From positions 1 to 35,784 of the forward strand of contig JAGQHJ010000020.1 of assembly GCA_020431915.1 (NCBI GenBank): a DNA stretch of 35,784 nucleotides, given 5' to 3'. Position numbers and translations under genes: made by a program. This document shows positions 18,754 through 31,510 of the stretch, in pieces. The stretch's first letter is position 1; each line of letters begins with the position of its first letter. The notes beneath the pieces are model-generated. The model worked only from the letters and a program-made list of their open reading frames with translations. It had not been told where the DNA came from and did not search any database. The DNA comes from Cyanobacteria bacterium HKST-UBA04 (GTDB taxonomy: Bacteria; Cyanobacteriota; Vampirovibrionia; Vampirovibrionales; JAGQHJ01).

Positions 18754-20315
18754 TTACAGGGCAGGAAGCTGGGGGCGGGCTGGTAGGGGTTGGGTGCCAA
18801 GTTGCAGCTGTTGGGCCGGAACCGATGACCAGAGGTAGGGACGTGGCAGATAGGCGACGGGCGGTGGTGGTACGTAGACCCATTTGTCGGGGTTGTAGGC
18901 CGACTCGTCGAAGCGGGCAACGCGTTTGGTGGCAGGATCATCGTTGGGGGCAGTCCCGTCTTTGCCGGAATTTACGAGCTTATCCAACTGGTAGCGCAGT
19001 TGTTCCTGCTCCTTGCCTTGGCGAAACCGTTCTTTGGTCCAGAGCTGGTTAAGCTTGGTGACAACGATGCCGACCCCGACCACGCCGATGCCCAGGGACA
19101 GGAAAAAGTGTTTGAGCTTCATGTTGCGCAGGCTGTTGTACAGCTCCGGGCTGGTGGCTTTGAGGGGTTCAAGGTCCTGGAAGCTCTTGATTTGTTGGGA
19201 AGCCGTCAGCCATTGGTTGCCAATGAAGTTTTTGCCGAAGACCTTGTGGAGGAAGCGTTCCTCGATGGTATGGTCCACCTGGTGCTGGTGGTTGATTAAA
19301 GGCTTGTACCAGTGCTTGGCCATGGCGCCGCTAATGGCGTCGGCCCCGAAGGCCAGGTAGGGGGCCACCACGGCAGCAACCCGGCTCAGGATTTCGAGGG
19401 TTTCCAGGTGGTCGCGTGACGCGTCGAGGTAGCCGAGTACCCCGGCCAGGATGGTCATTCTCATTTGTGTCCGGCTTAGGCCGAATACGGCATCCTGCAC
19501 CTTTTTTCCGTTCTTCAGGGTTTTGGTGACGCCGTTAAAGCTGAAATCGAAATTCCGGACAAATTTTTCCAAGGGTTTTTCGAGCCATTTGGCCCGGTGC
19601 CCGAACGCGGCCAGTGCCAAGCCGCTACCGATAAGGGTGGCTGCCAGGCCGACGCTTTGTTTGATACGGCGGTGGGCCTTTTGGTGGGCGGGGGAACCTC
19701 CCCTTCTTTCATGGATTTGTTGGACAGGGCGACGACGGAGCTGAAATCGCTTTTGTTGAAGAGGTTTTCGGTCAGCAGGTTTTTGACGAAGCTTAGGCTG
19801 TACTCGGCGGCAATAACCCCGCCCGAAGCCAGCAAAATGCCGGCTTTGACCGGAAGCAGGGCTTTTTGGCTGCCCTTTGGAATGGCTTTCAAGGGGCTGG
19901 CCAGGTATTTGGCCAGGCCAGGCTTCTTGGCCAGGGGGGAGACCTGCTTCATGGCTTCCTTGAAGAGGTACTGCCCGAAAACGGCCGGGGCAAAGTAGAA
20001 CAGGGCCGACTCGATGAATTCGAGGAAGGTCAGCTCGGTTCGCTCGGCCCAGCTTCGGGCAATGATAATCTTGGGACACCAGACCGACAGGGTGTCCTGG
20101 GTAAATTTGGCTACGGACTGGTTGGCTTCGGCGGTGGCCACATAGGTGGCTGCCGGCGAGCGCAGAAAGGCTCCCACCCAGCCGCCAGACGAAAAACGCA
20201 CGGCATTCGGGTTAACCGGCCGTGCGTTACTGGGTTTTGGCTGCGCTTCAACCGAAGCTGCCTGTAGCGTTGCTACAGGGCGTTTATGCAAAGGTTGTAA
20301 GGGCGAGAGTGACAT
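18754..20315 (-). pseudogene. Multi-pass membrane protein gene interrupted by a one-base frameshift
   Basis: Two overlapping frames make one protein of about 520 residues. The first part starts at the ATG 20315 (MSLSPLQPLHKRPVATLQ) and runs in one frame to about KSMKEGEVPP. The remainder (HQKAHRRIKQSVGLAATLIG onward) continues in the frame that ends at 18754. The switch lies between about 19683 and 19706, where the coding strand has GGGG and CCCCC runs, and fits loss of one base. Hydrophobic segments occur on both sides (FIESALFYFAPAVFGQYLF, SGGVIAAEYSLSFV, LIGSGLALAAFG, FFLSLGIGVVGVGIVV), so this is an integral membrane protein of unknown family. The tail is Pro/Tyr-rich (VYVPPPPVAYLPRPYLW). 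The cause could be a true mutation, a sequencing error in a homopolymer, or phase variation. The start lacks a clear ribosome site. Confidence 0.75.
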
Positions 20316-20364
20316 AATGGGCGTAAAATCCGGGTTTGATAGGAAAAATATCGATAAAAAACAA

Positions 20365-20411
20365 GAACAGCGGGTGTTGGTCTGGTTGGACCGGAGGGGT
20401 ACCCGCTGTTC
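20365..20411 (-). terminator. Rho-independent terminator after Met-rich frame B
   Basis: GAACAGCGGGT (20365-20375) pairs with ACCCGCTGTTC (20401-20411), with a smaller inner stem GGTC/GACC. On the minus strand the stem is followed by TTGTTTTTTATC. It ends whatever is transcribed leftward from 20442-20549 and insulates the membrane-protein gene that starts at 20315. Confidence 0.8.
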
Positions 20412-20441
20412 TATCGGCATTAAGCTTGTATTGGCTAATGG

Positions 20442-20549
20442 TTAGACGAAGCGGGCCCCCTTGTTCATCGAGGGCATCATCATCATCATCATCATCGACC
20501 CCTGGGGGGCGGATGGGGTGGTATAGGTGGTGATGAGGGGCAATAGCAT
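20442..20549 (-). CDS. Methionine-rich micropeptide B (35 residues)
   Basis: A minus-strand frame from the ATG at 20549 to the TAA at 20442-20444. It begins MLLPLITTYTTPSAPQGS, then has seven consecutive Met (19-25), then PSMNKGARFV. Nine of 35 residues are Met and there is no Cys. The Met run comes from seven ATG triplets (20470-20490 region), which could slip during replication. Its own terminator follows 31 bases beyond the stop. A second Met-rich frame with its own terminator lies just upstream, so the arrangement repeats. No clear Shine-Dalgarno is seen, so an sRNA with an accidental frame remains possible. Metal (for example copper) or membrane interaction would be conceivable; that is speculation from composition. 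Confidence 0.5.
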   Translation of the reverse strand: MLLPLITTYTTPSAPQGSMMMMMMMPSMNKGARFV

Positions 20550-20598
20550 CGTCTAATTGCTAGGGTTTTGGGTCGTATCTTGGTGGGATTGGGTTAAT

Positions 20599-20644
20599 AA
20601 AAAACACGGGCCACTGGGAATTGTCCTTGTGGCCCGTGTTTTTT
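20599..20644 (-). terminator. Very strong terminator, bidirectional in form
   Basis: AAAAAACACGGGCCAC and GTGGCCCGTGTTTTTT form a perfect 16-base-pair stem including the A/T runs, with a 14-base loop. It lies 21 bases past the stop of Met-rich frame A and is the strongest terminator in the window. Confidence 0.88.
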
Positions 20645-20665
20645 AGGAACAGTGTTGCGCTTGGG

Positions 20666-20761
20666 TTAACAAACAGGCCAGGATGCGACAGGCATGCCGC
20701 ACATCATGCGGCACATCGGCATCATCATCATCGGCTGGTTGTTGAACGAAGCGGTAGACAT
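20666..20761 (-). CDS. Methionine- and cysteine-rich micropeptide A (31 residues)
   Basis: A minus-strand frame from the ATG at 20761 to the TAA at 20666-20668. The product begins MSTASFNNQP, followed by MMMMPMCRMMCGM, then PVASWPVC. Nine Met and three Cys occur in 31 residues, with M-x-C and C-x-x-M-C spacing that would suit soft-metal binding. It is framed by a plausible promoter (20826-20853) and a 16-base-pair terminator (20599-20644), so a transcript of about 200 bases is likely. TTAGGA lies 14 bases before the ATG, a weak and distant ribosome site. The similarity to frame B (P-Met-run-P/S-M) suggests a family. Function unknown; a non-coding RNA is the alternative. Confidence 0.55.
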   Translation of the reverse strand: MSTASFNNQPMMMMPMCRMMCGMPVASWPVC

Positions 20762-21144
20762 TTTAAAGACGCAAGTCCTAAGAGGAGCGGCCCATTGAGG
20801 CCGTGGAGAGTATTAAGTGCCTAGCAGTCTAACACATCCACCACAAAACGCAAGCGTTCCAACGTTTTGCCGGTTAGGCCCATGGCCCCCTGCCCATGGC
20901 CTCTAGGCCGGGGCGGAATCTTTTTGAGGCGGCCGACGTCATGGGAAAGGCAACCTTATCCCATACGTCTCAGGCACCCCTTGCCGGCCGGTTTGGTGGT
21001 GCCGGGGGTTTTGTGTGGGCAGCTCTGGTGTGGCCAGGGCGTCTTGGTTACAATAGCCCGTATTGACCCAGCCACTGTTGGCGCCTTGTTGGTATACAAC
21101 GGGTGTACAACGGGGGTTCTCGACAAGTAGGAGTTTTAAGTGCC
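20762..21144. other. Divergent intergenic region
   Basis: About 380 bases between micropeptide A (minus) and the TPR gene (plus). On the minus strand it holds the promoter at 20826-20853 and a small GGCC-CATTGA-GGCC stem in the leader. On the plus strand, a doubled TACAACGGG word (about 21094-21114) precedes the TPR gene ribosome site. No other reading frame looks coding. Confidence 0.45.
20826..20853 (-). promoter_or_regulatory. Candidate promoter for micropeptide A
   Basis: On the minus strand TTGCGT (20848-20853), a 16-base spacer and TAGACT (20826-20831), about 65 bases before the ATG. The -35 overlaps a short AACGC-TT-GCGTT inverted repeat, a possible operator. Confidence 0.45.
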
Positions 21145-30625: not shown

Positions 30626-31510
30626 GTGACATCCGCCGCCTCTCAATCCCCAACATCGTTTGTTGCCCTGCTAACCGACTTTGGTGATCGCGATGGGTAC
30701 GTGGGGGTTGTTAAAGGGGTCATACTCCGACTCTGCCCGAATTGTACCATAGTCGACCTGGCCCACCATATTGACCCGCAGGATGTAAACCATGCCGGCT
30801 GGGTTCTGAACCAGTGCTTTGACGCCCTGCCGGATCAGACCGTCATCATTGCCGTGGTCGATCCGTACGTGGGTGATGCCACGCAACGCTCGGTGGTGCT
30901 GGTTTTCGAGGCCGGGCAGAAGGTGGTAGTGGTGCCCGATAATGGCTTGGCCGGCCGGCTGCTGGCCCGGTACGAACCGGTCGAGGTTCGGGTCATCCAA
31001 AACCCCGCCTTGCAGGGGGCGGGGCAAAGCACTACCTTCCACGGACGTGATCGGTATGCCCCGGTGGGTGCCCATTTGGCCCGGGCCATAGCCGAAGAAA
31101 CCCTGCCGGCTATGCTGGCGGCTGTGGGGCCAAGCTTGCCGGCTGCCGACTTGAAACGGCAGGGCCACGCCATGGCCCCTGTCCTTCGGGAAGACGATCG
31201 GTTGATTCAGGGGGCCATCGACGCCCTCGATCGTTACGGTAACCTGTTGACCAATGTGCCCAATACCATGTGGCCGGGGACTTGGACGGAAGCCGACGTG
31301 GCCACGGCCCAGGTAAACGATCGAACGATCCCCGTGGTGTGCTGCCTCAGCTATTCTGCTTTGCAGAAACCCAATGAGGGCCCAGCCCCGATTGGGCTGA
31401 TTCGAGGCAGTCACGGGTGTCTGGAGTTGGCGGTTGACGGGGCCTCGTTAAGCGAAACGCTTGGGATTCGGGCTGATGAGTTGCCTACACCGTTTGAATT
31501 ACGACTTTAG
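30626..31510 (+). CDS. S-adenosyl-L-methionine hydroxide adenosyltransferase family protein (DUF62)
   Basis: A 294-residue member of the DUF62 family, related to bacterial fluorinase and chlorinase, most members of which split S-adenosylmethionine to adenosine and methionine using water. The signature LLTDFGDRDGYVGVVKGVI includes D18. The Asp-Arg-His triad of the hydroxide-forming enzymes is visible as D79 and R88 (VVDPYVGDATQRSVVLV) and H139 (TTFHGRDRYAP). The C-terminal domain shows IDALDRYGNLLTNVP and ends PTPFELRL. The start is a GTG at 30626 with AAAGGA 11 bases upstream. It appears to be a single-gene unit. The triad argues for hydrolysis rather than halogenation; the biological purpose is unclear in most bacteria. 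Confidence 0.92.
   Translation: MTSAASQSPTSFVALLTDFGDRDGYVGVVKGVILRLCPNCTIVDLAHHIDPQDVNHAGWVLNQCFDALPDQTVIIAVVDPYVGDATQRSVVLVFEAGQKVVVVPDNGLAGRLLARYEPVEVRVIQNPALQGAGQSTTFHGRDRYAPVGAHLARAIAEETLPAMLAAVGPSLPAADLKRQGHAMAPVLREDDRLIQGAIDALDRYGNLLTNVPNTMWPGTWTEADVATAQVNDRTIPVVCCLSYSALQKPNEGPAPIGLIRGSHGCLELAVDGASLSETLGIRADELPTPFELRL

Follow-up and report, generated by a model that had tools for sequence, protein, structure and literature searches.

Tandem methionine-rich leader ORFs as putative ribosome-mediated attenuators of a membrane-protein gene family in Vampirovibrionales

Here, we present evidence that two short methionine-rich ORFs (A and B), encoded side by side in Cyanobacteria bacterium HKST-UBA04, are very probably the leader peptides of two tandem ribosome-mediated transcription attenuators of the membrane-protein gene that starts at 20315. 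The assessment draws on comparative sequence analysis of a 35,784-nucleotide stretch of DNA (the window, referring throughout to the whole stretch) and of related genomes. Relatives retain the Met/Cys cluster, the complementary RNA segments and the terminator, the units are located before one gene family, and the last part of the ORF pairs with the terminator behind it, which together favors cis-acting attenuators over stand-alone genes or small RNAs. A previous sequence-only reading had proposed independent micropeptide genes with a possible Cu(I) role, or alternatively sRNAs, and did not include the gene at 20315, which lies on the same strand downstream of A and B.

Two putative leader ORFs followed by terminators

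Both frames are present on the minus strand as previously described, including the Met runs and the Cys count of A (Table 1). In Met plus Cys content, A and B rank first and second among the 350 window ORFs of 20 to 60 amino acids, and ATG runs of at least four codons are confined to these two frames within the window. The strong terminators claimed within about 30 bases of each frame start 22 nt (A) and 29 nt (B) past the respective stop codons, both with a T tract, and the downstream gene starts about 50 nt past terminator B. Two features expected of an attenuator, clustered codons of one amino acid in a short upstream ORF and an intrinsic terminator between that ORF and the gene, are present. 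As previously noted, neither ORF has a convincing Shine-Dalgarno sequence. No strong promoter was found at A or B; the "plausible promoter" once proposed for A is a weak candidate without a match in a consensus scan, though a clear TTGACA element occurs in several homologous units of relatives.

Table 1. Features of the two putative attenuators and the downstream gene (window coordinates)
Feature	Position	Strand	Description
Leader ORF A	20666..20761	minus	MSTASFNNQPMMMMPMCRMMCGMPVASWPVC; 31 aa, 9 Met, 3 Cys; same-position Met/Cys leader ORFs before homologous genes in other genera
Met/Cys codon cluster of A, MMMMPMCRMMCGM	20693..20731	minus	Proposed stall site
Strand 2 of A, core TGGCCTGT	20672..20691	minus	Within 3' end of ORF A
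Intrinsic terminator A (strands 3:4)	20600..20643	minus	-28.8 kcal/mol; T-rich on both strands
Leader ORF B	20442..20549	minus	MLLPLITTYTTPSAPQGSMMMMMMMPSMNKGARFV; 35 aa, 9 Met including a run of seven
Seven consecutive Met codons of B	20475..20495	minus	Proposed stall site
Strand 2 of B, AAGGGGGCCCGCTT	20449..20462	minus	Final codons of ORF B
Intrinsic terminator B (strands 3:4)	20364..20412	minus	-23.5 kcal/mol
Putatively controlled gene, helical membrane protein	18754..20315	minus	Profile matches 19677-20237 and 18901-19698, in two frames
Third terminator-like hairpin with T tract	20195..20228	minus	-19.6 kcal/mol; inside first 40 codons of the gene

Methionine and tryptophan versions in relatives

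Most homologues of the downstream protein have a short ORF-terminator unit upstream, and the complete arrangement, in which a terminator separates a short ORF bearing a Met/Cys or Trp run from the gene, is present at about 40 homologues across the class. These occur in other genera of the window organism's order, the Vampirovibrionales, whose related genomes belong to Vampirovibrio, and in another family of the class (f6), which by our own assignment is probably Gastranaerophilales. Met/Cys leaders include MFLTAYNFAGMMMCPMLPRRIG (G003), MNAMITFTALLIGMMMMCPMILREDRPTSCAEG (G015), MNTTPTFTALLSYRMMMCPITPMGDRPKCCETR (G013), MEFFTIFAIVMIMCPIILRECGPMRCEEI (G012, G014 and G017) and, in f6, MTKNNNTMMMQMMMCGSFRGGHCSASRMC and nine others, with Met mixed with Cys and Gln in some units. 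Trp leaders include MFIPLVQLNTFCWWCLAIEGPPFSR in G012, many f6 leaders of the types SWWRL, QSWWHL or NWWWL, and a WWW leader, MVLLLFNQSNQSTLSADTNRHGWWWA, at a paralogue in the window organism's own genome (G000:C137). By the labelled loci, a Met-led and a Trp-led paralogue, one of each, coexist in thirteen genomes (G000, G005, G007, G012, G013, G014, G030, G044, G053, G100, G107, G115 and G131). Besides the window, tandem units occur in G005, with two Met leaders, and in G009, with two Trp leaders. A leader is lacking at some paralogues, and the leader-like ORF at G000:C126 contains a single Trp and shows no pairing (z +0.88). Leader type tracks paralogue clades, with two Met/Trp changes among 41 labelled genes on a tree of 46 homologues, a score never matched by shuffled labels; near-copies aid this figure and several branches are long, so the tree is to be read as label clustering and not as a precise history.

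Pairing between ORF end and terminator

Candidate antiterminators were assessed as the best duplex that the RNA lying between the Met/Trp cluster and the terminator could form with the terminator 5' arm plus loop, relative to dinucleotide shuffles. The first set of 21 units gave a mean z of -2.09 and a Stouffer value of -9.6, such values overstating independence because units of one family are related. Less exposed to kinship are the covariation of strands 2, 3, and 4 and the mismatched-partner test, in which cognate pairs reached -17.2 kcal/mol vs -13.2 kcal/mol for mismatched ones (z -5.8, permutation p 1e-5, 19 non-redundant units). Ten ordinary gene-end terminators had no such pairing (z 0.06). 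The f6 set, analyzed afterwards, gave a mean z of -3.69, with 22 of its 23 units at -2.4 or below, and its Trp leaders covary, with GAA, AGA, AAA, ATA, and TAA before CAGGTC set against TTC, TCT, TTT, TAT, and TTA. In most units, strand 2 falls within the ORF, after the Met/Trp codons and before the stop. As a class, the units possess an antiterminator pairing that is mutually exclusive with the terminator. Within the window, the pairing is clear for B, whose strand 2 has its partner in AGCGGG-TA-CCCC of the terminator (z -2.34, p 0.027; duplex -22.9 kcal/mol). It is weak for A taken alone, with a possible duplex of -17.6 kcal/mol between strand 2 and the terminator 5' arm (z -1.12, p 0.14).

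Folds of A and B with a stalled ribosome contain the antiterminator before the 3' arm of the terminator exists, but at full length the terminator still wins at equilibrium (stem probability 0.97 for A and 0.84 for B), so that the switch would need co-transcriptional kinetic trapping. Such trapping during transcription is generally accepted for classical attenuators. Several Trp units and the unit found at metY (below; G010/G008) flip at equilibrium too, the antiterminator of the latter winning if the ribosome stalls early. Many terminator loops of Vampirovibrionales contain CCUCC (L023, L034, L121, L109, L024, L032, L016 and L031), which resembles the anti-Shine-Dalgarno sequence and in several units is also what strand 2 pairs with.

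Leaders before methionine-linked genes and the proposed signal

A search for the pattern ATGATGATGTGY across the order was the source of leaders before other genes. In G010, a Met leader precedes metY (PF01053, E 4e-127), and G008 has a 95% identical metY with a diverged Met leader that keeps the Met/Cys cluster and the pairing GGCTTAG, while the C-terminal ends diverge in a different frame; the leader of this candidate metY attenuator (L075/L101 and L102 in G010 and G008) has a GTG start. In G003, a Met leader precedes a gene for a SAM-hydroxide adenosyltransferase (PF01887 and PF20257), and in G009 one precedes a SAM_HAT_C-like gene whose product is 30% identical to the C-terminal part of the G003 enzyme; these leaders at SAM-hydrolase-type genes fall in two genera (L055 and L054:9897-10700). 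SAM-hydroxide adenosyltransferases release methionine from SAM. No Met run was found upstream of the window's own SAM_HAT-like gene (30626-31510), no general Met leader was seen upstream of metH, and none was seen at metY of G004 and G006 or at the distant metY-like genes of G002-G003. Auxotrophy for Met or Trp was rejected as a general explanation of the leaders: trpA, absent in G000, G005, G007 and G009, is found in G012-G015, G000 has MetH, and V. chlorellavorus has been described as making both amino acids (PMC4451040).

An attenuator of the same architecture might instead respond, for example, to slower translation in general, to a drug or to nascent-peptide arrest, as Met and Trp are the sole amino acids with a single codon and each recurs among the leaders, and Met is combined with Cys and Gln in some of them. 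We regard such a signal as unlikely, since Met leaders stand at metY and at SAM-hydrolase-type genes, each in two genomes, and, in contrast to arrest peptides, the residues flanking the run are not conserved. SAM or other known riboswitches and T-boxes were also considered, and rejected as the units had no Rfam covariance-model match.

Conservation of the leaders

Between genera, the cluster, the complementary segments and the terminator are kept and the remaining peptide varies freely, whereas the leader ORF shared by G012, G014 and G017 differs at two synonymous sites only. In the search of relatives recommended by the sequence-only reading, peptides A and B had no sequence homologue. Hairpins kept alongside broken frames, named there as evidence against peptides, were not what relatives displayed, as the frames are kept. 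Exact or near motif A occurs in this genome only among 386 genomes of the phylum, peptide-A matches in relatives were rejected as off-frame or unrelated, and a TPR-protein scan of GTDB contigs returned nothing. Another Met-rich frame of the same genome, MMMVMMMC at G000:C107 (L056, about 1487-1560), was rejected as a leader because neither a terminator nor a gene lies directly behind it.

These patterns bear on the suggestion that A and B are independent short transcription units for functional Met/Cys-rich micropeptides, for example binding Cu(I). Their composition and own terminators would suit such a role, yet we find it highly improbable: the peptide outside the cluster is not conserved between genera, the C-terminal frames of the G008 and G010 leaders differ, Trp occupies the same place in paralogues, metY and SAM-hydrolase-type genes, but no copper gene, were seen among those that follow Met leaders, and the ORF end pairs with its own terminator. 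Equally improbable are terminated small RNAs whose CCUCC-rich loops act on Shine-Dalgarno sequences in trans, with incidental ORFs. Strong terminators and CCUCC in several of their loops would be expected of such RNAs, but CCUCC is missing from terminator A of the window and from the f6 terminators, one leader ORF varies at synonymous sites alone, Met/Trp runs recur at about 40 loci, and the units sit directly upstream of a gene, a placement better explained by cis-acting attenuators. Functionless chance ATG repeats beside terminators are a negligible prospect even though a trinucleotide repeat yields a Met run in one frame, given the class-wide recurrence, the clustering of Met/Trp labels, the pairing statistics and the excess of ATGATGATGTGY over its reversed pattern (36 vs 6 occurrences in 18 genomes); the earlier view that two tandem units of like odd composition are not accidental was well founded, with the Met run as the meaningful part.

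Proposed mechanism and known systems

For the proposed tandem attenuators, sequence and statistics establish the anatomy, its conservation, the pairing of cognate segments and the existence of Met and Trp versions in parallel. The proposed mechanism is that of the classical leader-peptide attenuator, for which we infer translation, stalling, the identity of the signal and the downstream gene as the in vivo target. When charged tRNA-Met is plentiful, the ribosome would cross the Met run to the stop codon and cover the ORF end, so that the terminator would form and transcription would stop. Under a shortage of methionine, and perhaps of cysteine too, the ribosome would stall in the Met/Cys cluster and leave the ORF end free to pair with the terminator 5' arm, and the polymerase would read on. 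The usual location of strand 2 in the final leader codons suits both outcomes, as it would be covered by a ribosome at the stop and exposed by one on the Met run. A and B would apparently act in series on one transcript.

In the E. coli his and trp attenuators, a run of codons for one amino acid is followed by an alternative pairing with the terminator 5' arm and then by the terminator. The window units have the same succession of short ORF, codon run, alternative pairing and terminator, and the seven consecutive Met codons of B are comparable to the seven His codons of hisL, but the window units differ in their Met/Cys run, tandem copies, phylum (Cyanobacteriota) and target, an uncharacterized membrane protein instead of a biosynthetic operon. 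The predicted methionine-dependent leader peptide metL upstream of metNIQ in Streptomyces lividans has a similar Met/Cys cluster (CMCRRMC), though a typical Rho-independent terminator is not present according to that paper (PMC8079986), whereas the window units have terminators and antiterminator pairing, are in tandem, and belong to another phylum with another target. Two leader ORFs in one leader region also occur in the tandem attenuators of Salmonella mgtCBR (PMC3641672), where they control one transcription unit, but with different signals and operon and no methionine run. Cysteine leader ORFs of Actinobacteria share a run of a sulfur amino acid, but conserved terminator hairpins, present here, were not reported for the mycobacterial ones, and the same survey of Actinobacteria did not find RNA elements at methionine operons (PMC1262725).

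The membrane-protein family and implications

Homologues of the downstream gene occur in 11 of the 18 genomes of the order and 46 of the 117 genomes of the class. The predicted structure is all helical (AlphaFold pLDDT 76, pTM 0.68), family members have one to four strongly hydrophobic segments, and no relatives were found in Pfam, NCBIfam, PDB sequences or PDB folds. The protein might transport the amino acid that is sensed, a plausible suggestion that goes no further than conjecture. In this assembly, the reading frame of the window gene shifts near 19690 in a C-rich stretch, which may be a sequencing or assembly error or may be real (a pseudogene); the two profile matches in different frames overlap at the frameshift (19640-19760). 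The third hairpin coincides with the codons of an N-terminal RFSSG motif, and a short N-terminal motif of F-x-G type (RFSG, RFQG, NFKG) is common to the A1 proteins, the L055 SAM_HAT protein and many f6 homologues, and could be a targeting signal of the class.

No paper on attenuation or leader peptides in these bacteria was found in the open-licence literature, a coverage within which absence is no proof of novelty. Our findings extend leader-peptide attenuation to non-photosynthetic Cyanobacteriota, add methionine attenuators that have both terminators and antiterminator pairing, and provide a first functional clue, amino-acid supply, for an uncharacterized membrane-protein family. We give an even chance to the broader proposal of one family divided class-wide into Met-attenuated and Trp-attenuated paralogues that are borne together by one genome after another, the Trp version having emerged independently in two lineages. 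Such a system would sense the two single-codon amino acids and deploy sister membrane proteins when their supply from prey or host is short. Vampirovibrio, an algal predator, belongs to this class of non-photosynthetic cyanobacteria. Since V. chlorellavorus NCIMB 11383 carries both the Met and the Trp version, control of predatory-lifestyle genes by amino-acid starvation would be testable in this organism.
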